35,963 nucleotides of DNA, from positions 1 through 35,963 of the forward strand of contig CAIKPM010000003.1 of the NCBI GenBank assembly GCA_903829325.1, written 5' to 3'. Source of the DNA: an uncultured bacterium (GTDB taxonomy: Bacteria; Vulcanimicrobiota; Vulcanimicrobiia; Vulcanimicrobiales; Vulcanimicrobiaceae). The notes beneath the pieces were generated by a model, which was not told the origin of the DNA, searched no databases, and worked only from the letters and a program-made list of their open reading frames with translations. Positions within the stretch are counted from its first letter, which is position 1. The number at the start of each line of letters is the position of its first letter. Shown piece by piece: positions 3,703-35,963 of this stretch. The translations under genes and the position numbers were made by a program.

Positions 3703-4215
3703 TTAGACTGCGCCCAGACTTCTCACGAGTTGTACGACCTCATCAACCACTTTCACAAGGGGCTGCTCACCGTTAATCCGATAGGTAGCCGTCCCATAGA
3801 GAGCTTTACGAGCTTCATACAACTCACTCACGCGCTGCTCCGTCGGCAAGGCACCCACTAAAGGACGCACGATAGCAGAATCGCGTAAACGCTGGGTGAG
3901 CGCGGCCACCGATACGTCGAGATAAATCGTTATCACCTGGGTGAGCAAACGACGGCTAGGCGGATGCGTTAAGAGCCCACCGCCAGTTGAAAGCAAGACT
4001 TGCGGACCAGCCACGATTTCTTCCAGCATCGCGTATTCATGGGCACGAAAACCAGCTTCGCCTTGCTCCGCAAAAATATCGGCGATGGGACCATAGCGTG
4101 CGACCAAGCATGCGTCCAAATCAACAAAACGCATCCGTAAGCGTCGGGCAGCTAACGAACCGACCGTTGATTTTCCACAGCCCATCAATCCCACGAAGGC
4201 AAAGTGCAACTTCAT
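3703..4215 (-). CDS. aroK: Shikimate kinase
   Basis: A 170-residue P-loop kinase that phosphorylates shikimate with ATP. The Walker A motif GLMGCGKST is at residues 9-17. FVDLDACL carries the Asp that contacts Mg and shikimate. GEAGFRAHE supplies the conserved Arg, STGGGLL is the Gly-rich shikimate loop, and VRPLVG contributes the lid-region Arg. The length matches the family (about 165-175). The start codon overlaps the stop of the clostripain-family gene by 4 bp (ATGA), implying translational coupling to that unexpected neighbour. aroB follows 48 bp downstream. Confidence 0.95.
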   Translation of the reverse strand: MKLHFAFVGLMGCGKSTVGSLAARRLRMRFVDLDACLVARYGPIADIFAEQGEAGFRAHEYAMLEEIVAGPQVLLSTGGGLLTHPPSRRLLTQVITIYLDVSVAALTQRLRDSAIVRPLVGALPTEQRVSELYEARKALYGTATYRINGEQPLVKVVDEVVQLVRSLGAV

Positions 4216-5567
4216 GCCGCCATCCCTGCATATCCAGGGACTAGTAAGGCACCAATCAGTTGATTATTACCGCTCAGATAGCTCTGCGTCGCCTCTAGCT
4301 CAGAAATCGCCGGAGCGTATGGAGCGACATCACTTAATTTCGTTGGCAGATGAACCGTCGGACCGGGAGCATCAAGATACGAGGGGCCGAAACCAGCAAA
4401 ACCAACACTCTCGCCATGCGCCAGAAGCGTCCCGCTGATTGCCAGAGCTAAGGAAGCGGCATCGCGGCGCACGTCGAGGGGCAGGCGCGGATCACGCGCC
4501 AAGACCGTGTAGACAGCAATCGCGGGACGATCGGCATTCCACGGAACACCAGAATTGGGCTGGTCGCGTTCCATTCCTTGGACCTGGCTGATATCAGACA
4601 AGACGCGGGCTCGAAAGCCCGGGATCTGCCGGCTATCTTGAATAAGCCGACGATTGAGTTGGACTTGCGCTTGTTCGACTGGCAGCATCCTGCTGTTGGC
4701 AAGATCCATCACGAAGAAGGTCGCCGCAGGGTGATAAGGCTGGGTATCACCATGACCATCGCTTTGGAGGTAAGTGCGATCCATCACCGTTTTGACCACG
4801 CCCTGAGCCTGTGCCCGAGGGTCACCCGCATGCGCTGCAATCTCGTGCAAGAGCGAGAACGGAATGCCCGGGGCGATCGTCGTCTCAGCACTTGCGGCGA
4901 AGTAACGCACTCCCACCCGCGAGAGGGTTTCGGCCACCGTGAGCGTGCCCTCGAAGCACTCGTGCATAACGACGCCATCAATGCGCCGATTCGCATCCGC
5001 TGGATAGTGCTGAGCGTGGATCGCGACTCCATCAGCAATCGCGCCCGCCAACGTATCGACAGACATGTGCTGCAAGCTGCCGTCAGGTTCTTGCGTAAAC
5101 GAGCCGCCCGCATCCCCAGCACCATGATCGGCCAACACCAGCCACGTCTCTCGTGCATGATGCAGATAGGCATCATCGAGCGTACGGGTCACGAAATTCG
5201 CCATTGCGGCGCGGCCCGACATATCAACCGGCTCACTTGCCACAACGTGCATCAGCGATCCGTTCGATAGCTCAAACATGACCGTCCGCATCCCTGGACC
5301 AACCCCCAGATTCGGACCGGTATCCTCAACGGTGAAGGCAATGCTTGGGTCGCCTTTACTCACCGAGACGAGCTCGGGAATTGGCCGCTCGATGTAGCCT
5401 AAGTTATTCGCCCCAGCAACATAGACGCCGACTTCGATTTTTGAAGGCGGAAGGCTCGGCTGGCTCGGCCTGCTTGCAGCTGAAATAGCCGCACTTCCCG
5501 GCGTTGCAGGAGCAGTTAGCGCAAACAAGCCAGGCGGTGTCGGTCCGATTCCCGAGGCGTTAGACAT
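4212..5567 (-). CDS. Clostripain-family (peptidase C11-like) protein
   Basis: A 451-residue protein resembling clostripain-type cysteine peptidases. The hallmark beta-strand VGVYVAGANNLGYI (about residues 46-59) matches the family's 'YMAADNNLE' block. The likely catalytic pair is His148 in LADHGAG and Cys204 in VVMHECFEG, where the family normally has a D-x-C motif. About 40 Ala/Pro/Ser-rich residues precede the domain. I see no signal peptide or membrane segment, whereas many C11 enzymes are exported. It sits between aroC (85 bp upstream) and aroK (4-bp overlap), so it is expressed with chorismate enzymes although no metabolic link is known to me. The gap before it holds a T-run just after the aroC stop and an AAGGTGATGG ribosome-site-like stretch. 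The family call is fairly good; substrate and activity are unknown. Confidence 0.75.
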   Translation of the reverse strand: MSNASGIGPTPPGLFALTAPATPGSAAISAASRPSQPSLPPSKIEVGVYVAGANNLGYIERPIPELVSVSKGDPSIAFTVEDTGPNLGVGPGMRTVMFELSNGSLMHVVASEPVDMSGRAAMANFVTRTLDDAYLHHARETWLVLADHGAGDAGGSFTQEPDGSLQHMSVDTLAGAIADGVAIHAQHYPADANRRIDGVVMHECFEGTLTVAETLSRVGVRYFAASAETTIAPGIPFSLLHEIAAHAGDPRAQAQGVVKTVMDRTYLQSDGHGDTQPYHPAATFFVMDLANSRMLPVEQAQVQLNRRLIQDSRQIPGFRARVLSDISQVQGMERDQPNSGVPWNADRPAIAVYTVLARDPRLPLDVRRDAASLALAISGTLLAHGESVGFAGFGPSYLDAPGPTVHLPTKLSDVAPYAPAISELEATQSYLSGNNQLIGALLVPGYAGMAA

Positions 5568-8911: not shown

Positions 8912-9649
8912 ATGAATGCTGACCTAGCATTTCAACAAACAGCCAACCTGGCGGCAGCGTACGCGGCAACCCCGCCGGCGTATGTGAGCTATATCTCGCG
9001 CACAACCATTCGCATTCCTCGCCTCCGACGTGAGCGCGACTTTGCCTATCACGAAATCAGCCGCACCCTTGACGGTGAAACGACGCTCATTGCGCTCCCG
9101 CAAGGCAAGCACCAGACCGTGGCGCAGGGCTTTCCGCTTCTTCCAACATTTAACGCCATTTCAGGCTTTAATCTGCGTTACGGAATGTCGTGGCACGGGA
9201 TGCCGTCCTTTCAACTCAGCAACGTCGCACCGCTAACATTCGCTCCAATCGTTCCACACGATGTCGATGTTGTCGTCGTGAGCACCAAGGGCTACCATAT
9301 CCGCTTCGCGCCCGATTCATCGGACGCGAAGCAGGGCACGACGCACGTTTTCTGCACACCGACTCAACACGAACTCAGCATCGCGCCTCGAAATGCCTAT
9401 TTCTTTTCTGAGGTGCTCATCGATAACGCGAGCGGACTTCCGCTGCGAGTTTCCTACGTTGGCAACAGTGACTTCAAGCTAGATTTTGTGTACGGCTTCC
9501 CAGAGGGACGCTGGGCACTCCAGAGCGCCCACCTGGAAAGCACGCTCTACGGTCCGTTGCACATCGGCAGATTGCACTTCGTTGCAGACACAACGTTTAG
9601 TGAAACGCATTTCAGCGCAACCGCTCCGTTAGAGTTTGATAGTCGTTGA
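8912..9649 (+). CDS. Hypothetical protein, beta-rich, possibly LolA/DUF-like
   Basis: A 245-residue protein with no recognised family. After a short Ala-rich start (FQQTANLAAAYAATPPAYVSYISRTTI) the sequence alternates strands and turns, e.g. RDFAYHEISRTLDGETTLIALP and LPLRVSYVGNSDFKLDFVYGF. This is the rhythm of LolA-like or 'outer-membrane lipoprotein sorting' half-barrels, where a late strand reads substrate change along a curved sheet; the resemblance is only by eye. No signal peptide is visible from this start and no upstream in-frame start extends it. It is a lone plus-strand gene whose last 21 bp overlap the end of a minus-strand membrane peptide gene. No strong Shine-Dalgarno precedes the ATG. 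Confidence 0.65.
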   Translation: MNADLAFQQTANLAAAYAATPPAYVSYISRTTIRIPRLRRERDFAYHEISRTLDGETTLIALPQGKHQTVAQGFPLLPTFNAISGFNLRYGMSWHGMPSFQLSNVAPLTFAPIVPHDVDVVVVSTKGYHIRFAPDSSDAKQGTTHVFCTPTQHELSIAPRNAYFFSEVLIDNASGLPLRVSYVGNSDFKLDFVYGFPEGRWALQSAHLESTLYGPLHIGRLHFVADTTFSETHFSATAPLEFDSR

Positions 9650-21152: not shown

Positions 21153-21313
21153 GGGCATCTCGAACAATAGGGAGTGATGGATTTGGTTTGGATTTTTCGT
21201 CGGATCAAGGAGCCAAAAGCCGCAGAAACGCAGAGCGTTTTAAGGGTTTTGGCGACGCAGAGCCGGCGGAAAAGACAAATCAAAGCCGTCGCTCCCTATT
21301 GTTCGAGATGCCC
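21153..21313. mobile_element. 161-bp MITE-like element with 22-bp terminal inverted repeats
   Basis: Terminal inverted repeats 21153-21174 and 21292-21313 are perfect over 22 bp (GGGCATCTCGAACAATAGGG at the outer end). They are flanked by a 4-bp direct repeat TGTA (21149-21152 and 21314-21317), as left by transposition. Imperfect symmetry extends inward (GGGAG-TGATGG against GGGAG-CGACGG and T-rich arms). The centre contains two CGCAGAG-type segments. It encodes nothing, so it was presumably moved in trans by a transposase outside the window. Its right end supplies the last codons and stop of the giant gene. The structure could also help terminate the convergent transcripts. Confidence 0.85.
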
Positions 21314-24300
21314 TGTAGGAGCTTGGGCGTAGCTGCCGAGCGCCTGAATCATCTGCTGCAGAGCAATCCGCATGTCAGGATTACTTTCGAGCGCGTCAAG
21401 CTGGGTGATATGACGCCACTTACCGCTAGCTTGCATCTCATCGACTTGAACGGCCCATTCCATCCCATGAGCGCTATACGCATCGCCGATCGAGAAGCGG
21501 AATAACTTGCCTTGATTGAGCGCCGTGTACATACGTTCTGGCACAATCTCAACAACTCGGCTGAATCCATGGTTCTGCCAGAACGAAGCCGCCACTGGGA
21601 GGCCTTGCGAAAAGACGACAGGCGTTTGGTTACGTGGCTTCACGCGCACCACTCCGCGCCCAACCCGAATTTGATAGCTCGCCTGCAGACTGATATTGGA
21701 AAGCCCTGGTGATATCGCGGACGCAACGCGCAGGACCCGCTGCGCATCGCTCGAGGCACTCGCAAGCCCGAGTCCAAAGGCGCTATTGCCTTCATAATAG
21801 CCAGTTCCCAGCACCACCGCGGTTGCACCCGGCACGGTCACCGCAGCAGCCGTTCCCGCTTGAGCCAGACTCATCGCGACGCCCTTATTGGCGATTGTCC
21901 CGACCTGATTTACCTGCGCCGCAAGCGCTCCCGATACATTGTGGACTTCACCGACAGTAGCCACATCCGTCGCGGCTTGTCCGGGCGCGACATTCACCAA
22001 TCGCCGCTGATTATCGACGGTACCGACCGAGACGGTGTTTGCCTGATCTGCAAGTGAGTCCGCGCCCAAAGCAACCGAATTTGCTGCGGATGCATTCGCG
22101 TTTGCCCCTAAGGCAACGCCTAAGGATTGGGTTGCCGACGCCGAGGTCCCCACAGAAAGGGTATCGGAGAACGCTGTTCCGTTACCTAAGCCCGCATCGG
22201 TACCAATCGCAATATTATTGTTTCCTACGATACCAAGGTCTGGCAACAACGATTCAAGATTGCGTTGGTGCTCTGCGGCACTCGACAAGGTGAGAGAATC
22301 CGCCACCAATGCACCAGCACTACCCGCACCTTGACCGAGCGCAATATTCCCGTTACCCGTGACCTGATTGCCTGCGCCAGCGCCCAGAGCACTGTTCCCG
22401 ACACCAGTGACCTGTTGACCAGCGCTCGCACCAGCCGCGGTATTGCCGCTGCCAGTGACCTGAGTACTCGCTTGTAGACCAAAACCCGTATTGGCCGATC
22501 CGGTCACTTGCACACTCGCAAGTTCGCCACTGCCGGTATTTCCATCACCCACGACAGCAGTGCTCGCTCCATAACCCGTACCCGTATTACTAATCCCGCT
22601 GACATTGAATCCGGATAATTCGCCAACGGCGGTATTTTTATCACCGTTGAGGCCAGAGCCTGTATGATCCCCAACCGCGACATTGCTGGTGCCGCTTAAG
22701 CTCAAGCCAGCGGTGACGCCAATCCCAACATTGCCATTGCCGTTCAAACCGACTCCGGTAGACACGCCATAGAGGGTATTATTCATCGCACTCGCCGATA
22801 GGCTAGGGTTAATTTTTTCGACTGCGCTTGTCAAGCTCGCTAATTGATTCGTAATCCCACTAACTTGGCTCGTGACTTGGCCATCGAGGCCGGTAATCGA
22901 ACCGTTGACATTACTGGAGACACTCACTAAGGCGGTATTCACGCTTGCGGATGCACTGCTCAGCGCAATACTCACCGTTGTTAATGCGGTATTGAGTTGA
23001 GCTGAGACTGTATTGACCGTTGTATTCAGCGCAGCGGACGTAGTCATCAGCGTCGTATTCAGCAGCCCCGACACACTATTCAACGCGGCATTGGCCAGCC
23101 CAGTGCTCGTGCCACCGCCGCTCGTGCCGCCGCCTCCACCGCTTGTGCCGTTCAAAGAGGCTAATTCGCTATTCAACGCTGCAGATACCGAAGCGATATT
23201 TTGGGAAACCGTATTCGCGGCGTCAGAAACAGCCGTGATACTCCCCAGAATCGTTGTTTGTACAACGCTGAGTTGCGTATTGAGTGCACTCGACACGCTC
23301 GCCAAACCCACATCTAAGTTTGCAAAATCCGCGCCAATAGTGGCATTCAATTGCCCTGAAACGCTGAGCAGGTTCGCCGCAACGACCCCAACCGTACCGG
23401 AAGTACTTAAGAACGCACTATTCAAGTTCGCCGAGACGCTTAATAATGCTGTATTGACATTCGCAGAGCTCGCGAGCAAAGTACTAGCAACGTTACCGAG
23501 CGTCGTGTTCAAATTCGCGGAAACCGAAGTCATATTCGTAGACACCGTCGCAAGTGACGTATTGATGTCGCTTGAAACCGCCACGAGATTCGCAGTCAGT
23601 GTCGTTAGCTGCGTATTGAGGTTGGCCGAGACACTCACAAGTGCGGTATTCACATTCGCTGAAACGCTCACCAAGATCGCATTCGCGAGTCCGCTCGTGG
23701 GTAGCAATCTATTGAGCGCACCAGAAACGCTCACAAGCGCTGTATTGAGATTACCCGAGCTCGTCACAAGCTGCGCAGCAACCGTTGTGATTCCGGCATT
23801 TGCGCTGCCCGATACGGCCGCAAGATTGCTCGTAAAGCTCGCCGCAGCAGTCGTGAGCGTATTGGTCAGATTCGTATTATCAGCAATCAAGCCAGTATTG
23901 ATATTACCCGACACACTCACAAGCGAAGTATTGAGGGCGCTGGCCGCGCTGGCCAAGGCTTGATTGAGGTCAGCCGAGGCTATTGTGACACTCGTATTCA
24001 GGCTACCAGAAACACTCATCAAGCTTGAATTCAAGGCGCTGGAGACTGCCGTGAGTGCGGTATTTGCAGCACTCGAAACGCTTGCGAGCGCCATATTCAG
24101 ATTCCCCGAGGCACTGGTGAGCGCGCCGTTGAGATTCGCAGAAATACTCATCAGCGAGGTATCGGGCACGAGGCCCGCGATCGCGCTGATCCCCGCGTTG
24201 ATCGAACCCGACACGCTAACTAATGCAGTGTTGAGATTACTCGAAACCGAGACCAGATTGGTAGCAAGCGTGACGACCGCCGTATTGAGGTTCCCAGAAA

Positions 24301-27300
24301 CACTGACGAAATTGCTATTTACCGCATTCACGGTGGTGTTCAGACTGGTATTGAGCGTCGCAGAAGTATCAGAAAGATTGCTCAGAAAATTATTTGCAGC
24401 ACTCATTTGACTCGCATTCACGGTGGCGCTCACGCTCACTAAAGCCTGGTTGAGATTGCCCGATGCGAGTACAATCGCGGCATTGTTCATCCCAGAGATA
24501 CTGGTTAGCGCCATATTCACCACACCCGAACTGCTGATCATCGCCGTATTCAGATTGCTCGAGACACTCTCCAAGGCCGTATTAACCAAGCCCGAAATAC
24601 TCACGAGCGTCGGATTCACCACCAGCGCCGCTTCAATGGTATTTAACACACCAGACACGCTAGTTAGGGCCATATTCAGATTACCCGACGCTGAGACCAG
24701 ATGATCGGCAAGCTGCAACGCTGCCGTGTTGAGATTACCCGAAGCACTCATCAGGCTTGTATTGACGTCACTCGCGTCCGTAGCAATCTGAGTATTGAGA
24801 TTCGCAGAAATGCTCGTCAGATTCGTATTGAATACGCCAGATGAACTCAGTAACGCAATCCCGATATTACCCGAAGCACTGATCAGATTTTGATTCAGGG
24901 TATTTTCGGCGCCTACAACTGAGCTATTCAGATTGCTCGATACGCTGATCAGGGCTACATTGAGATTCCCCGAAGCACTCACCAGTGCGGTTCCGATATC
25001 GCTTGCAGTTTGTAGAAGCGACGGATTCAAATTCCCCGAGATACTTACCAACGCTTGATTAAGCAAGCCCGAAGTGCTCACGAGGTTTGTCGGCGAGGCA
25101 AATTGCGTCGTGATCATGGTATTCAAATTGGCTGAGACACTCGATAAGGCCGTATTCACATTGCCCGACGCCGAAACCAAGGTTGTCGCGACGGTGGTAA
25201 TCTGCGTATTGAGTGCACCGGAAACGCTGACGATATTCACGTTCCACGAACTCGACGCCGCCTCTAAGCCACTATTGAGGTTACCGGAAACACTTACCAG
25301 GCTTTGATTGAAGAGCCCAGACGTGGTGTTTAGCGTAGCGTTGAGATTACCCGACGAGCTAAGCAGAGACGCATTGAGGTTTCCCGAGAATCCGGTGATG
25401 GACGTATTGAGATTGCTCGAGACGCTCACCAGCGCTGCATTCAGATTACCGGACGCACCAGTAATCGAACTATTCACGTTACTCGAGACACTTAACAGCG
25501 ATGCGTTCAGATCTCCTGACGCACCAGTAATCGAACTATTCACGTTGCTCGACACACTCAACAGAGATGCGTTCAGGTCGCCAGATGCGCCCGTGATCGA
25601 ACTATTGAGGTTGCTTGAAACACTCATCAGCGTCGCGTTGAGATTCCCCGAACTGCTCGCGATGCGCTGATTGAGCGTGCCCGAGAGTCCCGTAATAGAG
25701 GCATTCAGATTACTCAAAACACTCATGAGTGCGCTATTCGCACTCCCCGAAGCACCGGTTATCGAACTATTCACATTGCTTGAAACGCTGACAAGGGCCG
25801 CATTGAGAGTACCAGAAACGCCGGTGATCGAGCTATTCATATTACTCGATACACTCATAAGCACAGCATTCATATTGCCGGAAGCGCCAGTGATTGAGCT
25901 ATTGAGATTGCTCGACAGACTGACTAATGCACCGTTCATCGTACCTGACGAACTTACCAAGCCTGTATTGTCGACGTCGTTAGACAAAATCGAATTCAAC
26001 AGCCCAGACACGCTCACCAAGGCAGTGTTGAGGTTTCCAGAGACAGAAACACTATTGCTGGCCACAGTGGTAATCGTGGCATTGAACCCACCAGACACGC
26101 TGAGCAAAGCACTATTGAGCGTACCTGAAGCCGCAATAATCGCCGCGTGAGCAGTCCCCGACACGCTGACCAAAGCAGTGTTGAACGTCCCAGAAGTGCC
26201 GACAATCGATGCGTTCAGATTGCCCGAAACGCTCACGAGCGCACTATTCGCACTCCCCGAAGCACCGGTTATCGAACTATTCACATTGCTTGAAACACTC
26301 AGGAGTGCGCTATTCAGATTCCCCGATGCACTCACTAGCGCGAGATTGACATGACCAGAGGATCCGGTAATCGAGCTATTGATATTGCTTGAGACACTCA
26401 CCAGCGCACTATTCACATTACCAGACGCACCAGTAATCGAATTATTTACATTGCTCGAGACGCTGACCAAGGCTGCATTCACATTGCCTGAAGCACCAGT
26501 AATCGAACTATTCACATTGCTCGAGACGCTGACTAAAGCTACATCCAAATTACCAGAAGCACCGGTAATCGAATTATTCAGGTTGCCAGAGACGCTTATC
26601 AAGGATGTATTGAGCGTACCAGATGCACTCACGAGGCCGGTATTGGTGAGGTCGATCTGGGCGTAGGCATTCAAAACTCCCGACACACTCACTAAGGCCG
26701 TATTCAAATTCCCAGAGGCGGAAACGAGGTTATTTGCCAGCGTCGAGGCCGCACCATTGAGAGTGCCCGAGACACTCACCACAGCATTATTCAGCGCAGC
26801 AGATGCAGCGACGAGCGACGTATTGAGATTCCCCGAAACGCTCACGAAAGAGCTATTCAGATTACCAGAAGCGCCGGTGATCGATGCATTCAGGTTGCTT
26901 GAAATACTGACCAACGCGTTGTTGAGGTTTCCTGAAGCTCCGGTAATCGAGGCATTGAGATTGCCTGAGATGCTGACCAACGCGTTGTTCAGATTTCCAG
27001 AGAAGCCAGTGACCGAACTATTCACATTCGAGGAGACACTCACCAACGCCGCATTGAGATTTCCAGACGAGCTTACCAATGCGACACTCAGATTGCCGGA
27101 AGCGCTCACGAGCGACGTATTCATCGTGCCCGAGGCACCGGTAATCGACGCATTCACATTCGCCGAGACACTGATCAACGCAGCATTGAGATTGCCCGAC
27201 GCGCTCACCAGGGTCACGTTCTGCTTGCCGGAGACACTCACGAGTGACGTATTCACATTGCCCGAAGCACCAGTAATCGAAGGATTGATATTCGCTGACA

Positions 27301-30300
27301 CGCTAATCAACGCGGCATTGAGATTGCCTGACGCGCTCACGAGAAGCGTATTAAGGTTGCCAGAAGCGCCGGTGATCGAGGCGTTCAGATTGGCCGAGAC
27401 ACTGATCAGCCCCGTATTGAGACTCCCAGATGCCCCAGTAATGGAAGCGTTCAGATTACTCGAAACGCTGACCAGAGTCGCATTCACATTGCCAGAGCTG
27501 CTGACCAAGGCGCCGTTGAGATTACCCGAGACACTCACCAAGCCAGCATTGACATTACCAGATGCACCGGTAATCGAACTGTTCATATTGGCAGAAACGC
27601 TGACCAGCGCGGTATTGAGATTACCTGACGCGCTCACGAGCTGAGTATTGTTGATGTAATTCACCGTTAACAACGTATTCAAGGTGCCGGAGACACTGAC
27701 TAACGCCGTGTTCAAAACACCCGAAGACGAAACAAGATCCGTCGCCTGGGTCTGAATCGCTGTATTTACGCTCCCCGACACACTGACCAAACTGCTATTA
27801 AGATTCGCTGAGGCTCCGTTGAGCGAAGCATTGAGCAAGCCGGATGACGCCACCAATGCGGTATCCAAGTTCCCCGAAGCACCCGTAATTGATGCGTTCA
27901 GATTGCTTGAAACACTCACCAAGGCAGTATTCACATTGGCGGAAACACTGACTAAGGCTGTATTCAGATGACCAGAAGCACCCGTGATCGAGGCATTGAC
28001 ATTGCTCGAAACACTCATCAACGCTGCATTCAAATTGCCCGAAGCACTCACGAGCGAGGTATTCACATTACCCGAAGCACCAGTAATCGACGCATTCATA
28101 TTCGAGGAAACACTGATCAACGCGTTGTTGAGATTTCCTGAAGCACTCACGAGTGACGTATTCACATTGCCGGAAGCGGCAGTAATCGAGGCATTCATAT
28201 TCGAGGAGACACTCGTCAACGCGGTATCGAGATTGCCTGAAGCGCCAGTAATTGACGCATTCAGATTGCTCGAGACACTGACGAACGCCGCATTGACATT
28301 ACCCGATGAACTCACTAGCGCCGTATTCAGATTACCTGACGCGGCGATCAGCGAGGTATTCACGTCACCCGACGCGGCGATCAGCGGAGCCATGAGTACA
28401 CCCGAGACGCTAACCAGCGCCATATTCAGATTCCCCGAAGAGCTCACCAGCGCCGTATTGAGCGTCCCTGCGGCAACCGCAAACGGATTATTCAGAGTCG
28501 CTGAAACGCTGACCAAGGCTGTATTGAGATTGCCTGACGCGCTGATGAGTACGGTATTGAGATTACCCGATGCACCGGTAATCGAAGGATTGATATTTGC
28601 AGAAACACTGATCAACGCAGCGTTGAGATTTCCCGATGCGCTCACCAACGGCGTGTTCGCGCCTGCTGAGATCGCGAGCAGCGATGTATTGAGGTCACCT
28701 GAAAAACCGGTGATTGAGGCATTGATCGTGCTCGAGACACTCCGTAAGGCCGTATTCAGGTTGGCAGATGAGCTAATCAGCGTCGTATTAAAGCCACCAG
28801 ATGCAGCGGTCAACTGCCCATTGACCATGCCAGACACACTAACCCACGCGGTGTTCAAATTACCGGACACACTGACCAGCGCCACATTGAGATTGCCAGA
28901 GAATCCGGTAATCGAAGGATTGATATTCGCGGAGACACTGATCAACGCAGCATTCAGGCTTGCCGATACGCTCACGAGTTGAGTATTGAGGTTCGTGGAA
29001 TATCCTAGCCACGCTGTGTTGAGATTGCCCGAAGCCCCAGTAATCGAGGCATTGAGATTTGCGGAAACACTGACGAGTCCAGTATTGAACGCTCCAGATG
29101 CACTCACAAGCGCGGCATTCAGATTACCGGATGCCCCAGTGATCGAGGAATTCACATTACTCGAGACGCTGATCAATGCGTTATTCGCATGACCCGAAGC
29201 ACTCACGAATGTCGCATTCAGATTACCCGAGGCACCGGTCACCGAAGCGTTCAGATTACTCGACACACTCACCAACGCGGTATTGAGCACGCCCGAACTA
29301 CTCACGAGCGCAGCATTCAGCGTAGCGGACCCGCCAATCACCGAGGCATTCAGATTACTCGAGACACTGACGAAAGCCGTGTTGAGATTGCCCGAAGCAC
29401 TCACCAAAGCCACGCTGAGATTTCCTGAGGCACTCACAAGCGTGGTATTCAGATTACCCGAAGCACCGGTAATCGAAGGATTGAAATTCGCGGAAACGCT
29501 GATCAACGCTTGATTGAGATTCCCCGAAGCGCTGACCAGCGACGTGTTGAGATTGCCCGAGGCACCCGTAATCGCAGGATTCAGATTCGCGGAAACGCTG
29601 ATCAACGCTTGGTTGAGATTGCCTGATGCGCTGACCAGCGGCGCATCGAATTGTCCCGACACACTCACCAATGCGGTATTGAGATTACCCGAGACACTCA
29701 CCAACGCAACGTTGATATTCCCAGATGAACTCACAAGCACCGTGTTGAGATTACCTGATGCACCCGTAATCGAGGGATTGATATTCCCCGAGATACTGAT
29801 CAGCGCCGCATTCAGATTACCAGATGAGCTGACAAGCGCCGTATTCACATTCCCAGAAGCGCCAGTGATCGAGGCATTCAGATTCGATGACACACTGATC
29901 AATGCAGTATTGAGATTGCCAGAGGCGCTCACCAAGGTCGTATTCACATCACCCGAGGAACCGGTAATCGACGCATTCAGGTTGGCAGAGACGCTGATCA
30001 AGGCCGTATTGAGATTCCCAGATGAACTCACCAATGCGCTATTCACATCACCTGAGGAGCTGACGAGCGCCGTATTGAGATTGCCAGAGGCGCCAGTTAT
30101 TGATGCGTTCAGATTGCTCGAAACGCTGATCAACGCACTATTCAGATTACCCGACGAACTCACAAGCGCCGTATTCACATTTCCCGATGCGCCAGTTATT
30201 GACGCGTTGAGATTGCTCGAAATGCTGATCAACGCACTATTGAGATTCCCTGAAGAACTCACCAAGGTCGTATTCAGATTACCCGAAGCACCCGTGATCG

Positions 30301-33300
30301 AGGCGTTGAGATTCGACGAGACACTGATCAACGCGTTGTTCAGGCTACCCGAAGCGCTCACCAGCGCCGTATTCAGATTACCCGAGGAACTCACCAGCGA
30401 CGTGTTGGCATTGCCTGAAGCGCCGGTAATCGAAGCATTCAGATTCGATGAAACACTCATCAACGCAGCATTGAGATTTCCCGATGCGCTTACGAGCGTC
30501 GTATTCAGATTGCCGGAAGCACCGGTAATCGAAGCATTCATGTTGGCTGAAATACTCATCAGCGCCGTATTGACATTCCCAGAAGCACTGACCAACGCCG
30601 TGTTGACATTCCCAGAAGCACCGGTGATGGAAGCATTCAGATTACTCGAGACACTGAGCAACGCTGTATTTAGATTACCTGAAGAGCTGACAAGCGCGGT
30701 GTTGAGATTGCCAGACATCCCCGTAATCGAAGAATTGACATTAGCTGAAACGCTGATCAGTCCAGCATTCATATTACCCGATGCACTCACCAGCGCAACT
30801 TGGACATTTCCCGAAGCACTCACGAGGTCCGTATTCAGATTGCCCGAGGCCCCAGTTATCGATGGATTCAGATTACCCGAAACACTGATCAAGGCTGCAT
30901 TCAGATTGCCCGAAGAGCTCACCAATGCGGTATTGAGATTCCCCGAAGCACCGGTAATCGATGGATTCAGATTCGCTGAAACGCTGACCAAGGCCGCGTT
31001 CAGATTGCCCGAGGAACTCACCAAGGCCGTATTGATATTTCCCGATGCGCTGACCAAAGCGACACTCAGGTTACCAGACGCACTGACCAACGAAGCATTC
31101 AAGCTCCCTGAGGTACTCACAAGCAACGTATTCAGATCACCCGAAGCGCCCGTTATCGAGGCGTTGAGATTACTCGACACGCTCACCAAAGCGCTATTGA
31201 CAATGCCAGATGCGCTCACGAGCGCTGTATTGACATCGGCCGAGAAACCGCTGATCGACGCATTCATGTTCCCCGAAATGCTGATCAAAGCAGTATTCAC
31301 ATTCCCCGATGAACTCACGAGCAAGCTATTGACGCCGCCGGATCCACCGAGAAGTGAGGCATTAATATTTCCCGAAATGCTCATCAAGGCCGTATTTACA
31401 TTTCCGGAATTGCTCACCAAAGCTGCATTCATATTTGCGGAATTGCTTACGAGCGAGGCGTTCAGATTACCCGAAGCACCGGTAATCGACGGATTAATAT
31501 TCGCGGACACGCTGATCAACGCCGCATTCACATGGCCCGAAGCACTCACGAGCAAAGTGTTGAGGTTCCCAGAAGCGCCCGTAATCGAAGGGTTGATATT
31601 CGCGGAAACACTCATCAACGCCGCATTCACATTGCCCGAAGCACTCACCAGCAAGGTGTTGAGGTTACCAGAAGCACCGGTAATAGAGCTATTGATATTC
31701 GCGGACACACTGATCAATGCCGCATTCACATTACCCGAAGAACTCACCAGTGTCGTGTTCAGGTTGCCGGAAGAGCTTACCAACAGCGTGTTGAGGTTAC
31801 CCGATGCACCAGTGATAGAGTCATTGATATTCGCGGAGACACTCATCAACGCCGCATTCACATTGCCCGAGATACTGACCAACGCTGTGTTGACGTTTCC
31901 AGAAGCACCCGTAATCGAAGGATTGATATTCGCGGAAACACTCATCAACGCAGCATTCACATTGCCCGAAGCACTCACCAGCAAGGTGTTGAGATTACCA
32001 GAAGCACCCGTAATCGAAGGATTGATATTCCCGGAAACGCTGATCAGCGCCGCATTCACATTGCCCGAGATACTGACCAACGCTGTGTTGACGTTTCCAG
32101 AAGCACTCACGAGTGCGCTATTTACATCACCAGATAAGCCGGTAATCGATGGGTTGATATTTCCTGAGATGCTCACTAAGGCGGCATTGAGGTTACCAGA
32201 AGCACTCACGAGCGCAAGATTGACGTCGCCCGAGAAACCGGTAATTGAGCTATTGACGTTACTCGAAACACTGACCAGTGCTTGATTCAGGTTGCCAGAC
32301 GAGCTCACCAAAGCGCTATTGACGTCGCCGGATGCACCGGTGATCGAGGCATTCAGATTACTCGAGACACTGATCAACGCTGCATTCAGAACACCAGATG
32401 AGCTGACGAGCGGAGCATTGAGATTACCCGAAGCACCGGTGATCGAAGCATTTAGGTTACTCGACACACTAATCAATGCAGCATTCAGATTCCCGGAAGA
32501 ACTTACCAGTAGCGGGTTCCCCGCCGCTCCAATCACCGATGCATTGAGATTAGCCGAGATGCTCACGAGTGCTTGATTCAGATTACCAGAAGCACTCACC
32601 AATAATGCATTGACATTACCCGAAGCACCCGTGATCGAGGCGTTGATAGTACTCGATACACTGAGCAAACCGGCATTCAGATTGCCTGAAGCGCTCAGGA
32701 GTGTCGTATTCATATTGCCCGAAGCGCCAGTGATCGAGGAATTGAGGTTACCTGATACACTCACCAAAGCCGCATTGATATGCCCAGAAACACTTATGAG
32801 CAGAGTATTGAGATTACCAGAGGCACCGGTGATCGACGAATTGAGATTCCCCGAAACGCTGATTAAGCCCGCGTTCAGATGACCTGAAGCGCTGACTAAG
32901 GCGGTATTGAGGTTTCCTGACGCGCTAACGAAGGCAGTGTTGACATTCCCAGAAGCACCAGTAATTGAAGAGTTTATGTTGGCAGAAACGCTGATCAACG
33001 CAGTATTCAGATTCCCCGAAGAGCTCACAAGCGACGTGTTCACATTGCCTGAAGCACCCGTAATCGACGAATTGACATTGGCAGAAACGCTGATCAAAGC
33101 AGTATTGATATTTCCCGAAGAGCTTACTAACGCCGTATTGACATTGCCTGAAGCGCCCGTAATCGACGAATTGACATTGGCAGAAACGCTGATCAAGGCA
33201 GCATTCAGATTCCCCGACGAACTCACCAGTGTCGTGTTCAGGTTACCTGAAGAGCTCACGAGCAAGGTGTTGAGATTGCCAGAAGCGCCCGTGATAGAAG

Positions 33301-35963
33301 AGTTCACGTTAGCGGACACACTGATCAACGCTAGGTTCACATTGCCTGATGAACTTACGAGCGCCGTATTTACATCTCCAGAAGCGCCGGTGATCGAAGA
33401 GTTCACATTACTCGATACGCTGATCAAAGCCGCATTGAGATTACCAGAAGCACTCACCAAGTTTGTATTGAGATTACCCGACGCACTAACCAACGCAAGA
33501 TTCAGATTTCCCGAAGAGCTGACTAGTGCAGTATTGAGATTGCTCGAAGCGCTCACTAAGGCCGTATTCACATCGCCAGAGTACCCGGTGATAAAACTAT
33601 TGATATTGCCCGACACACTGATCAACGCTGCATTGAGAGTACCTGAAGAGCTCACGAGCGTCGTATTCAGATCTCCCGAAAATCCGGTAATAGAGCTATT
33701 GAGATTACTCGACACACTGATCAGCGCCGCATTGAGATTGCCAGACGCGCTGACCAACGAGGTATTGAGATTGCCCGAGGCCCCGGTGATCGATGAATTG
33801 AGATTGCTCGATACGCTGACCAGTCCAGCATTCAGATTACCCGAGCTACTGATTAACGCAACATTGAGATTCCCCGACGCGGCGACTAAGCCTGCGTTGT
33901 TATTATCGATGAGCGTCGTATTGATCATACCGGAAATACTGGTGAGTGCTTGATTGAGATTCCCCGAAGCGCTCACCAGCGTCGTGTTGAGGTTGCCCGA
34001 AAACCCCGTAATCGAAGCGTTCAGATTACTCGAAACGCTCATCAGGTTCAGATTAACCGTACCAGAACTGGTGATCAGATCGGTATTAAGGTTCCCAGAA
34101 AAACCCGTGATCGAGGCATTCATATTACCCGATACGCTGATCAAAGCCGCATTCGCATGACCAGACGCACTCACGAGCAACGTATTCATATGACCGGAAG
34201 CGCTGACCAACGCAGTATTGAGATTCCCAGAAAAACCGGTGATTGAGCTATTGAGGTTGCTTGAGATACTGATCAATGCGGCGTTCAGATTGCCCGAAGT
34301 ACTCACCAAATCTGTATTCCGGTTCCCAGAGGCACCGGTAATCGAAGGGTTGATATTTCCCGAGACGCTGATTAACGCAGCATTGAGATTGCCCGAAGCA
34401 CTCACCAAGTTCGTATTGAGATTCCCAGAGGCACCGGTAATCGAAGGATTGATATTTCCCGAAACGCTGATCAAGGCGGCATTCAGATCACCAGAAGCGC
34501 TGACCAAGGCAACATTCACGTTGCCAGATGAGCTCACGAGCGCCGTATTCACGTCGCCCGAAGCGCCAGTGATTGACGAATTCACATTACTTGACACGCT
34601 GATCAACGCGGCATTCAGATTGCCCGAAGAGCTCACCAGCGCCGTATTCACATCGCCAGAAGCGCCAGTGATTGATGAATTCACATTACTGGACACGCTG
34701 ATCAACGCGGCATTCAGATTGCCCGAAGAGCTCACCAGCGCCGTATTCACATCACCCGAAGCTCCAGTGATTGAGGCATTGACATTGCTTGACACGCTGA
34801 TCAACGCGGCGTTCAGATTGCCCGAAGAGCTCACCAACGACGTATTCAGATTCCCAGATGCACCAGTGATTGAGGCGTTGACGTTGCTTGACACGCTGAT
34901 CAGCGCAGCATTCAGGTTGCCGGAAGAACTCACGAGCGACGCATTCACATCACCGGAGGCGCCTGTGATCGAACTATTGATGTTACTCGAGACGCTGATC
35001 AAAGCGGCGTTGAGATTCCCCGAAGAACTCACGAGGATTGCATTCGCAACAATCCCATCAGCCAGCAGCGTTGCATTGAGGTTAGCGGAGATGCTCACCA
35101 ACGCAGCGTTCAAATTCCCCGAAGAACTTACGAGATGAACGTTAATCTGTTCCGAAGTATTCACGAGGGTGGCGTTGAGATTTCCTGAAAATCCCGTTAT
35201 CGATGAATTGATATTACTCGAAATGCTGATAAGCGCTGCGTTGAGATTTCCAGACGCGCTTACAAGATGTAGATTTACGTTTCCGGATGCACCAGTAATA
35301 GATGAGTTTATATTAGCGGACACACTGATCAACGCCGAGTTTACATTTCCAGATATACTGACCAAGTTACTATTGAGATTACCCGACGCACCAGTAATTG
35401 ACGAATTGACGTTTGCAGAAACGCTGATCAGAGCAACATTCAGATTTCCAGATGCACTCACGAGCAAGGTATTGAGATTGCCTGAGCTACTGACCAACGC
35501 AGCACTAACATCACCTGACGCTCCAGTGATTGATGAGTTAATATTCCCCGAAATACTGATCAGTGCCGCATTCAGATTGCCAGACGAACTTACCAATGAG
35601 GTATTAAAATCACCGGAGGCTCCGGTGATCGATGCATTAAGATTCCCAGAAATACTGATGAGAGACGCATTCAGATTGCCAGAAGAGCTGACCAACGAGG
35701 TATTAAGATCACCAGAGGCTCCGGTGATCGATGCATTAAGATTGCTTGAGACGCTCGCCAGACTCGAGTTCAAATAGCCTGAAGAACTGACCAACGCAGT
35801 ATTCAGATTACCAGACGCACCCGTAATCGATGCATTGATATTCGATGAGATACTGAGCAACGCTTGATTCAGATTACCCGAAGAACTCACCAGTGCCGTA
35901 TTCAGATCACCAGAGAATCCAGTTATTGAGGGATTCATATTGGCGGAAACACTGATTAACGAA
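21296..35963 (-). CDS. Giant repeat-rich YadA-type trimeric autotransporter-like surface protein (5' end outside window)
   Basis: At least 4888 codons; the frame is still open at the right edge (SLISVSAN precedes the first visible Met), so start, signal peptide and promoter are not seen. From the N-terminal side it contains the following. About 13 kb are 11-residue repeats (22891-35963), with types SITGASGNLNT, ALVSSSGNLNA and ALISVSSNLNA, interrupted by a GTSGGGGGTSGGG linker near 23094-23150. A Gly/Asn head with about 18-residue periods (e.g. TGSGNTAAGASAGQQV) spans 22223-22770. A YadA head (VALGANANASAANSVALG) and neck (RRLVNVAPGQAATDVATVGEV) span 21941-22222. A YadA-anchor-like segment (GVAMSLAQAG ... 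GTGYYEGNSAFGLGLAS ... QASYQIRVG) spans 21653-21940. The last 118 residues lie beyond the anchor. Secretion as a type Vc trimer is inferred from the anchor. The final GHLEQ and stop come from a MITE. Confidence 0.88.
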   Translation of the reverse strand, partial: SLISVSANMNPSITGFSGDLNTALVSSSGNLNQALLSISSNINASITGASGNLNTALVSSSGYLNSSLASVSSNLNASITGASGDLNTSLVSSSGNLNASLISISGNLNASITGASGDFNTSLVSSSGNLNAALISISGNINSSITGASGDVSAALVSSSGNLNTLLVSASGNLNVALISVSANVNSSITGASGNLNSNLVSISGNVNSALISVSANINSSITGASGNVNLHLVSASGNLNAALISISSNINSSITGFSGNLNATLVNTSEQINVHLVSSSGNLNAALVSISANLNATLLADGIVANAILVSSSGNLNAALISVSSNINSSITGASGDVNASLVSSSGNLNAALISVSSNVNASITGASGNLNTSLVSSSGNLNAALISVSSNVNASITGASGDVNTALVSSSGNLNAALISVSSNVNSSITGASGDVNTALVSSSGNLNAALISVSSNVNSSITGASGDVNTALVSSSGNVNVALVSASGDLNAALISVSGNINPSITGASGNLNTNLVSASGNLNAALISVSGNINPSITGASGNRNTDLVSTSGNLNAALISISSNLNSSITGFSGNLNTALVSASGHMNTLLVSASGHANAALISVSGNMNASITGFSGNLNTDLITSSGTVNLNLMSVSSNLNASITGFSGNLNTTLVSASGNLNQALTSISGMINTTLIDNNNAGLVAASGNLNVALISSSGNLNAGLVSVSSNLNSSITGASGNLNTSLVSASGNLNAALISVSSNLNSSITGFSGDLNTTLVSSSGTLNAALISVSGNINSFITGYSGDVNTALVSASSNLNTALVSSSGNLNLALVSASGNLNTNLVSASGNLNAALISVSSNVNSSITGASGDVNTALVSSSGNVNLALISVSANVNSSITGASGNLNTLLVSSSGNLNTTLVSSSGNLNAALISVSANVNSSITGASGNVNTALVSSSGNINTALISVSANVNSSITGASGNVNTSLVSSSGNLNTALISVSANINSSITGASGNVNTAFVSASGNLNTALVSASGHLNAGLISVSGNLNSSITGASGNLNTLLISVSGHINAALVSVSGNLNSSITGASGNMNTTLLSASGNLNAGLLSVSSTINASITGASGNVNALLVSASGNLNQALVSISANLNASVIGAAGNPLLVSSSGNLNAALISVSSNLNASITGASGNLNAPLVSSSGVLNAALISVSSNLNASITGASGDVNSALVSSSGNLNQALVSVSSNVNSSITGFSGDVNLALVSASGNLNAALVSISGNINPSITGLSGDVNSALVSASGNVNTALVSISGNVNAALISVSGNINPSITGASGNLNTLLVSASGNVNAALMSVSANINPSITGASGNVNTALVSISGNVNAALMSVSANINDSITGASGNLNTLLVSSSGNLNTTLVSSSGNVNAALISVSANINSSITGASGNLNTLLVSASGNVNAALMSVSANINPSITGASGNLNTLLVSASGHVNAALISVSANINPSITGASGNLNASLVSNSANMNAALVSNSGNVNTALMSISGNINASLLGGSGGVNSLLVSSSGNVNTALISISGNMNASISGFSADVNTALVSASGIVNSALVSVSSNLNASITGASGDLNTLLVSTSGSLNASLVSASGNLSVALVSASGNINTALVSSSGNLNAALVSVSANLNPSITGASGNLNTALVSSSGNLNAALISVSGNLNPSITGASGNLNTDLVSASGNVQVALVSASGNMNAGLISVSANVNSSITGMSGNLNTALVSSSGNLNTALLSVSSNLNASITGASGNVNTALVSASGNVNTALMSISANMNASITGASGNLNTTLVSASGNLNAALMSVSSNLNASITGASGNANTSLVSSSGNLNTALVSASGSLNNALISVSSNLNASITGASGNLNTTLVSSSGNLNSALISISSNLNASITGASGNVNTALVSSSGNLNSALISVSSNLNASITGASGNLNTALVSSSGDVNSALVSSSGNLNTALISVSANLNASITGSSGDVNTTLVSASGNLNTALISVSSNLNASITGASGNVNTALVSSSGNLNAALISISGNINPSITGASGNLNTVLVSSSGNINVALVSVSGNLNTALVSVSGQFDAPLVSASGNLNQALISVSANLNPAITGASGNLNTSLVSASGNLNQALISVSANFNPSITGASGNLNTTLVSASGNLSVALVSASGNLNTAFVSVSSNLNASVIGGSATLNAALVSSSGVLNTALVSVSSNLNASVTGASGNLNATFVSASGHANNALISVSSNVNSSITGASGNLNAALVSASGAFNTGLVSVSANLNASITGASGNLNTAWLGYSTNLNTQLVSVSASLNAALISVSANINPSITGFSGNLNVALVSVSGNLNTAWVSVSGMVNGQLTAASGGFNTTLISSSANLNTALRSVSSTINASITGFSGDLNTSLLAISAGANTPLVSASGNLNAALISVSANINPSITGASGNLNTVLISASGNLNTALVSVSATLNNPFAVAAGTLNTALVSSSGNLNMALVSVSGVLMAPLIAASGDVNTSLIAASGNLNTALVSSSGNVNAAFVSVSSNLNASITGASGNLDTALTSVSSNMNASITAASGNVNTSLVSASGNLNNALISVSSNMNASITGASGNVNTSLVSASGNLNAALMSVSSNVNASITGASGHLNTALVSVSANVNTALVSVSSNLNASITGASGNLDTALVASSGLLNASLNGASANLNSSLVSVSGSVNTAIQTQATDLVSSSGVLNTALVSVSGTLNTLLTVNYINNTQLVSASGNLNTALVSVSANMNSSITGASGNVNAGLVSVSGNLNGALVSSSGNVNATLVSVSSNLNASITGASGSLNTGLISVSANLNASITGASGNLNTLLVSASGNLNAALISVSANINPSITGASGNVNTSLVSVSGKQNVTLVSASGNLNAALISVSANVNASITGASGTMNTSLVSASGNLSVALVSSSGNLNAALVSVSSNVNSSVTGFSGNLNNALVSISGNLNASITGASGNLNNALVSISSNLNASITGASGNLNSSFVSVSGNLNTSLVAASAALNNAVVSVSGTLNGAASTLANNLVSASGNLNTALVSVSGVLNAYAQIDLTNTGLVSASGTLNTSLISVSGNLNNSITGASGNLDVALVSVSSNVNSSITGASGNVNAALVSVSSNVNNSITGASGNVNSALVSVSSNINSSITGSSGHVNLALVSASGNLNSALLSVSSNVNSSITGASGSANSALVSVSGNLNASIVGTSGTFNTALVSVSGTAHAAIIAASGTLNSALLSVSGGFNATITTVASNSVSVSGNLNTALVSVSGLLNSILSNDVDNTGLVSSSGTMNGALVSLSSNLNSSITGASGNMNAVLMSVSSNMNSSITGVSGTLNAALVSVSSNVNSSITGASGSANSALMSVLSNLNASITGLSGTLNQRIASSSGNLNATLMSVSSNLNSSITGASGDLNASLLSVSSNVNSSITGASGDLNASLLSVSSNVNSSITGASGNLNAALVSVSSNLNTSITGFSGNLNASLLSSSGNLNATLNTTSGLFNQSLVSVSGNLNSGLEAASSSWNVNIVSVSGALNTQITTVATTLVSASGNVNTALSSVSANLNTMITTQFASPTNLVSTSGLLNQALVSISGNLNPSLLQTASDIGTALVSASGNLNVALISVSSNLNSSVVGAENTLNQNLISASGNIGIALLSSSGVFNTNLTSISANLNTQIATDASDVNTSLMSASGNLNTAALQLADHLVSASGNLNMALTSVSGVLNTIEAALVVNPTLVSISGLVNTALESVSSNLNTAMISSSGVVNMALTSISGMNNAAIVLASGNLNQALVSVSATVNASQMSAANNFLSNLSDTSATLNTSLNTTVNAVNSNFVSVSGNLNTAVVTLATNLVSVSSNLNTALVSVSGSINAGISAIAGLVPDTSLMSISANLNGALTSASGNLNMALASVSSAANTALTAVSSALNSSLMSVSGSLNTSVTIASADLNQALASAASALNTSLVSVSGNINTGLIADNTNLTNTLTTAAASFTSNLAAVSGSANAGITTVAAQLVTSSGNLNTALVSVSGALNRLLPTSGLANAILVSVSANVNTALVSVSANLNTQLTTLTANLVAVSSDINTSLATVSTNMTSVSANLNTTLGNVASTLLASSANVNTALLSVSANLNSAFLSTSGTVGVVAANLLSVSGQLNATIGADFANLDVGLASVSSALNTQLSVVQTTILGSITAVSDAANTVSQNIASVSAALNSELASLNGTSGGGGGTSGGGTSTGLANAALNSVSGLLNTTLMTTSAALNTTVNTVSAQLNTALTTVSIALSSASASVNTALVSVSSNVNGSITGLDGQVTSQVSGITNQLASLTSAVEKINPSLSASAMNNTLYGVSTGVGLNGNGNVGIGVTAGLSLSGTSNVAVGDHTGSGLNGDKNTAVGELSGFNVSGISNTGTGYGASTAVVGDGNTGSGELASVQVTGSANTGFGLQASTQVTGSGNTAAGASAGQQVTGVGNSALGAGAGNQVTGNGNIALGQGAGSAGALVADSLTLSSAAEHQRNLESLLPDLGIVGNNNIAIGTDAGLGNGTAFSDTLSVGTSASATQSLGVALGANANASAANSVALGADSLADQANTVSVGTVDNQRRLVNVAPGQAATDVATVGEVHNVSGALAAQVNQVGTIANKGVAMSLAQAGTAAAVTVPGATAVVLGTGYYEGNSAFGLGLASASSDAQRVLRVASAISPGLSNISLQASYQIRVGRGVVRVKPRNQTPVVFSQGLPVAASFWQNHGFSRVVEIVPERMYTALNQGKLFRFSIGDAYSAHGMEWAVQVDEMQASGKWRHITQLDALESNPDMRIALQQMIQALGSYAQAPTGHLEQ
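25455..25586 (-). repeat. Near-identical 66-bp tandem units
   Basis: Two successive 66-bp units begin at 25455 and 25521, and a third partly diverged unit begins at 25587. They encode SSITGASGDLNASLLSVSSN-type pairs. They show the two-unit phase of the array. Confidence 0.75.
34581..34877 (-). repeat. Three near-identical 99-bp tandem units
   Basis: Units start at 34581, 34680 and 34779. The first two differ at only a handful of positions over 99 bp, and the third is slightly more diverged. Each encodes one SITGASGDVNT / ALVSSSGNLNA / ALISVSSNVNS triplet. The similarity implies recent unequal duplication. Confidence 0.85.

Follow-up and report, generated by a model that had tools for sequence, protein, structure and literature searches.

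A proposed giant trimeric autotransporter fibre with a hendecad stalk in an uncultured Vulcanimicrobiaceae bacterium

The closest described systems are the type Vc proteins (trimeric autotransporters, TAAs) YadA, SadA and BpaC, which combine a signal peptide, head repeats of the LxxGxxAG type, a neck, a coiled-coil stalk and a four-strand C-terminal anchor, modules that also have counterparts at the locus described here, the signal peptide by way of its probable 5' end. In canonical TAAs, the barrel is the C-terminal end of the protein. Tetrabrachion, to which the present fibre can be likened by description, is an archaeal four-stranded S-layer protein and not a TAA. As summarized in a source that cites the work on it, it is a surface protein with a hendecad-type stalk, a right-handed coiled coil in which 11-residue repeats prevail (cited in PMC11676326), and the same source refers to hendecad-dominated coiled-coil families (Martinez-Goikoetxea and Lupas 2023, cited in PMC11676326). 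Within the TAAs, 11-residue repeats have been seen crystallographically in the stalks of NadA3 (PMC6191539) and UspA1 (PMC6839023), two per structure. Long fibres are exemplified by AtaA of Acinetobacter Tol 5, with a length of ~260 nm, whose anchor is bound by the separate periplasmic protein TpgA like a nut on a bolt; in simulations, the periplasmic partner strengthens the anchor (PMC13082670). C-terminal extensions of TAAs are mentioned in the same paper by way of a 2026 preprint (Dorison et al., cited in PMC13082670).

The stretch of DNA analysed here (the window, 35,963 nucleotides) is an entire contig, C3, of a 1.89-Mb assembly in 70 contigs, and it very probably holds the 3' part of the gene for a giant type Vc surface fibre with a hendecad rod, most likely with an adhesive role and a periplasmic stop at the C-terminus. 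Unlike the stalks of YadA, SadA and BpaC, which consist of 15-mers or heptads, the stalk encoded in the window is almost all hendecad and much longer, and an extra domain follows the barrel. It shares with the NadA3 hendecads the layout of hydrophobic residues at a and h and weaker ones at d and e (PMC6191539), but where NadA3 and UspA1 have two isolated undecads among heptads, it has ~360 units, rich in Ser and Asn and almost uncharged. A preliminary description of the locus had proposed a giant TAA with an undecapeptide stalk, which is supported by the present analysis, and had called it a candidate for an undescribed surface structure, which is too strong. The TAA class is already known, as are 11-residue coiled-coil units in TAA stalks (PMC6191539; PMC6839023) and, as far as they are covered by citation in PMC11676326, hendecad-dominated families and tetrabrachion.

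Modules of the open frame, its probable 5' end and its paralogues

The gene occupies a minus-strand frame, 21296-35962 (-), which stays open for 4888 codons, ends in a single terminal stop and is cut by the contig edge. As this edge falls inside the repeat array, the figure, which agrees with that of the preliminary description, is a lower bound. The following features were assigned, in order from the C-terminus:

21299..21652 (-): C-terminal extension, ~110-118 residues past the last barrel strand; kept in all four paralogues, without a Pfam or NCBIfam family
21653..21922 (-): YadA-like anchor, comprising a coiled-coil plug and, for the putative trimeric barrel, four beta strands; PF03895 at 23.7 bits, profile matches to AtaA-TM (9vnj) and Hia (2gr7/3emo)
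21923..22039 (-): neck (NTVSVG...RRLVNVAPGQAATDVATVGEV); profile match to the solved TAA necks of SadA, BpaC, YadA and EibD
22040..22783 (-): membrane-proximal YadA-like head repeats (NxxxGxxAGxxVTG / NSVALGA); PF05658 at E=2.8e-4 in two stretches, just below cut-off, and paralogue alignment
22883..35962 (-): stalk of ~350-360 hendecad units, reaching the contig edge; repeat parse, period and AlphaFold
23099..23155 (-): short Gly/Ser/Thr linker, GTSGGGGGTSGGGTSTG, breaking the membrane-proximal coil; assigned from sequence

The repeat region takes up residues 1-4360 of the frame. Over the first 3,500 residues, identity at lag 11 was 0.42, against 0.136 in shuffles (shuffle maximum 0.146), and at lag 33 it was 0.587, three 11-mers making up a higher-order 33-residue unit. 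The 11-residue repeat of the preliminary description was thus recovered, and its estimate of ~390-400 copies proved slightly high, since ~353-361 units were counted (361 in the profile parse), with 322 successive spacings of exactly 11. The commonest residues at unit positions 1-11 are A/S, L/I, V/T/I, S/G, A/V/S, S, G, N, L/V/I, N and T/A/S, and the Asn at position 10 is nearly invariant. Charge is almost lacking over the 4360 stalk residues, with Lys essentially absent, Arg and Glu at 0.1% each and Asp at 1.1%. Long ORFs (up to 923 aa) lie antisense to the array at 23013-35777 (+) and seem to result from its composition.

The head, neck and anchor named in the preliminary description were borne out. 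In a Pfam search of the 399-residue C-terminus, YadA_head and YadA_anchor both scored just below cut-off; PF03895 passed it narrowly at 21734-21841 in a whole-genome search, and the PF05658 head repeats, just below in the window, were above it in one of the paralogues (A, see below). A profile of the head, neck and anchor matched SadA, BpaC, YadA, AtaA-TM and Hia in the PDB, the last two in the barrel. Neck and YadA-type head repeats, which like the anchor are marks of the type Vc class, are indicated by PF05658 and the solved necks, and by PF05662 on the C14 fragment described below. The barrel usually, though not universally, lies at the very C-terminus of these proteins, and here ~118 residues follow its last strand. 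Since other TAAs, too, are reported to have extensions (PMC13082670, by citation), these residues mark a variant and do not argue against membership.

Genes of chromosomal type surround the fibre gene, namely priA, aroB, aroK, aroC and genes for cytochrome oxidase, homoserine dehydrogenase and dihydroorotate dehydrogenase. The best relatives of aroC (78% identity) come from the same family of genomes, and the contig is therefore regarded as native to the genome. A weak match to the Clostripain family (C11) is found at 4212-5567 (-), between aroK and aroC, and a 245-aa ORF at 8912-9649 (+) had no Pfam match.

In a DNA search of the genome, array-like sequence was found on three further contigs, C14, C69 and C21. 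At the end of C14 lies a 5' fragment of 416 codons (+) that encodes a putative signal peptide, head repeats of the YadA type, a neck (above cut-off for PF05662, at 1.9e-7) and 12 units. The signal, of the Sec type as judged by eye, has a long n-region, a hydrophobic core, FLSILGIGVFAF, and an AQA-G site. Since the C14 units are 81% identical to the window array, compared with 57%, 52% and 50% for those of paralogue A, C21 and paralogue B, C14 probably carries the 5' end of the window gene and is the best candidate for it; it would supply the start and signal that the preliminary description had asked for. The join across the unsequenced gap is inferred; no 25-mer bridging it is shared by C14 and C3. 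Joining C14 to C21 instead was rejected (array identity 0.52 vs 0.81). The whole fibre protein would be more than 5,000 residues long.

C69 carries two complete paralogues in tandem, A (L011:5134-10521, 1795 aa) and B (L011:10505-15847, 1780 aa), which overlap by 17 nt and whose stalks have a 29-residue period (7+11+11). C21 (L009:1-2736) holds the 3' 911 codons of a further paralogue, the 5' end of which was not found anywhere in the assembly. The order of modules, i.e. stalk, second head, neck, anchor and extension, is the same in all four 3' ends.

The C-terminal extension

The extension, which had been overlooked in the preliminary description, has ~12 residues that are invariant over the four paralogues. 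It was matched by no Pfam or NCBIfam model, and no OmpA-like or other peptidoglycan-binding Pfam match was obtained up to E=10. AlphaFold, run on the single sequence (pLDDT 62), gave two helices, three strands and a helix, and the fold search returned no match below E=0.26. TAA-like ORFs of two genomes of another family in the same phylum (G037 and G038; L101, L102, L105) are short, have heads and necks, end in FSIQF and are without the extension.

A survey of 99 genomes from the family brought up two further clear relatives of the extension. One, in G126 (L103:1483-1773 (-)), is a stand-alone 96-aa protein without an evident signal peptide, adjoining a gene identified by eye as epoxide-hydrolase-like. 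The other, in G065 (L114), occupies the middle of a protein that begins with a FitA-like ribbon-helix-helix. When only the four TAA rows were used to build the model, the two scored 24.4 and 15.1 bits, respectively, the best of 2000 shuffles reaching 10.3, and a modest homology to both proteins is probable from these scores.

By analogy with AtaA, the extension is most likely a periplasmic stop against pull-out, as TpgA is for AtaA, and the TAA topology would place it in the periplasm. A fused stop is the simplest reading because AtaA has TpgA and because C-terminal extensions are reported in TAAs (PMC13082670, by citation). Both AtaA and the window fibre are very long TAAs, and the anchor, which is reinforced on the periplasmic side in AtaA, may be so in the window fibre too, where the extension is the candidate module; TpgA, however, is a separate peptidoglycan-binding protein, whereas this module is fused to the anchor and contains no known wall-binding domain. 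The latter point, together with the two relatives, one without an evident signal and one FitA-like, which suggest a regulatory origin, lends weight to a quite plausible alternative, somewhat short of evenly balanced, in which the fibre is as proposed but the extension serves in folding or assembly, acts as a signalling domain or is only a passive remnant left by gene fusion. Its retention in all four paralogues with the invariant residues speaks against a remnant, and its post-barrel position, the same as that where TpgA and the reported extensions act (PMC13082670), against the alternative as a whole. A more specific scenario is offered tentatively and is rather unlikely to hold in full: a lineage-specific domain, with kin in a stand-alone protein and in the tail of an antitoxin resembling FitA, may have been recruited to the periplasmic end of four giant TAAs to act there as a new type of built-in lock or sensor, the fibre being a hendecad rod nearly without charge and longer than half a micrometre.

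Fold of the stalk

For the stalk, the best reading is a hendecad coiled coil of alpha helices and not a beta-solenoid, because four lines of evidence, the hydrophobic period, the 7/11 spacings, the neck register and the AlphaFold helix, agree. Hydrophobicity recurs most strongly every 3.67 residues (11/3) in the window stalk and every 3.625-3.635 (29/8) in the stalks of the paralogues; by the handedness rule, a period of 11/3 makes the coil slightly right-handed and one of 29/8 leaves it almost straight (PMC4786415). The conserved hydrophobic residues at unit positions 2 and 9 are spaced by 7 and 4, the pattern of a coiled coil, and place the core at a and h. Where spacings are short and not a multiple of 11, 53 of 63 fit 7a+11b, against 35% expected by chance. 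The inserts that separate units, e.g. QITTVAT, are heptads with hydrophobic a and d; they occur in the paralogues and, in the window stalk, become more frequent towards the membrane end. On C14, the neck helix enters the array with its hydrophobic register kept (EQL-x6-L-x3-L). For a 132-aa stalk block, AlphaFold, supplied with 17 blocks taken in register from the same stalk, computed a single helix over residues 2-131 at pLDDT 91.3; this is a single-chain prediction and the best of five models, the remainder scoring 83, 77, 74 and 35, and hendecads are reported to be difficult for AlphaFold (PMC11676326). On the side of composition, Ser, Asn and Gly have a low helix propensity, and Pro, odd within a helix, occurs at position 11 in ~17 units, mostly right before SITG units (INPSITG); these features count against a helix.

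The preliminary description had left two folds open, the hendecad coiled coil, which is now favoured, and an Asn-ladder beta-solenoid. On the latter account, which is improbable, the array would be a curlin-like solenoid (22 residues making two strands) on a trimeric autotransporter anchor. Curlin repeats (CsgA/CsgB) resemble the array in their Ser/Asn/Gly composition and 11-residue half-repeat, and the half-repeat, AxVxQxGxxN, lines up with unit positions 1, 3, 7 and 10, the last being that of the nearly invariant Asn. A curlin-repeat protein was also the best PDB match of the stalk profile (E=8e-5), and the NCBIfam CsgB model matched at 1e-4, far below its cut-off. These scores can, however, be accounted for by the low-complexity Ser/Asn/Gly/Ala composition, to which the curlin match was put down. 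Curlin consists of beta strands with inward residues in alternation and no regular heptad inserts, whereas the pattern of the window is helical: a solenoid leaves the hydrophobic residues at positions 2 and 9 unexplained and has to contend with seven-residue inserts tolerated throughout the paralogues, the neck helix in register with the array and the predicted helix. The sole stalk match among 30 named TAA-carrying genomes, moreover, was a coiled-coil-like ORF with a 29-residue repeat. Matches to Baculo_PEP_C, apolipoprotein and ZorA, families of amphipathic helices or coiled coils, were put down to chance.

That the array is an assembly artefact, a refutation foreseen in the preliminary description, or a decayed gene is very improbable: the contig edge inside the array and the orphan stalk fragment on C21 would fit such a case, but the frame is intact across 14.7 kb, two complete paralogues (1795 and 1780 residues) lie on another contig, and collapse or expansion of identical copies is unlikely in an array this old and diverged, because its longest exact DNA repeat over the whole 13 kb is 62 nt and its 99-nt units are on average 78% identical to their best-matching unit.

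Distribution, proposed assembly and significance

A search with the stalk profile for other carriers, as advised in the preliminary description, found no such array in the 148 other genomes of the phylum and none at 80 loci of ordinary TAA carriers. One match in G038 (L121), a 336-aa ORF, was rejected as an unrelated 11-residue repeat (SGGLNTAGQDV), and the match among the 30 named TAA-carrying genomes was a weak one to a 1907-aa ORF of Bradyrhizobium (G153, L127) whose coiled-coil-like repeats are roughly 29 residues long. A stalk search of viral contigs, plasmids and phages, in which the BLAST low-complexity filter may hide matches, gave nothing. Some part of the head, neck or anchor profile was matched in 3 of the 149 phylum genomes, the genome itself and two of another family. 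In the sets searched, which are limited, we could not find another TAA stalk made almost purely of hendecads for thousands of residues.

In the proposed assembly pathway, which follows what is established for TAAs, the chains would be exported by Sec and the trimeric barrel inserted by BamA-type machinery; a BamA-like Omp85 protein is encoded in the genome. Three chains would then thread to the surface and zip into an alpha-helical hendecad rod, a slightly right-handed coiled coil with a core of hydrophobic a (Leu/Ile) and h (Leu/Val/Ile) residues, smaller Ala, Val or Ser at d and an invariant Ser at e. The rise of a coiled coil is ~0.15 nm per residue, from which the 4360 stalk residues would span ~650 nm if the coil is unbroken, with the C14 part and the gap to be added. 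The N-terminal YadA-like head encoded on C14 would be held at least this far from the cell, where it would serve adhesion or aggregation, and the second head would adjoin the membrane. The post-barrel extension most likely folds in the periplasm into a stop that resists the pull-out of so long a lever arm.

What is new is the scale (~650 nm or more if fully helical), the near-total use of hendecads over ~4,300 residues that carry hardly any charge, and the lineage-specific post-barrel domain of ~110 residues, which has no Pfam relative and is shared with three paralogues. If the reading of the stalk is true, the fibre is a natural hendecad coiled coil, nearly pure across thousands of residues and almost uncharged, with about two and a half times the length stated for AtaA (PMC13082670). 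It would then be a test case for how coiled coils that lack heptads or salt bridges fold and cross the outer membrane, and the fused C-terminal domain would offer a self-contained system in which to ask how very long fibres resist being pulled out of the outer membrane.
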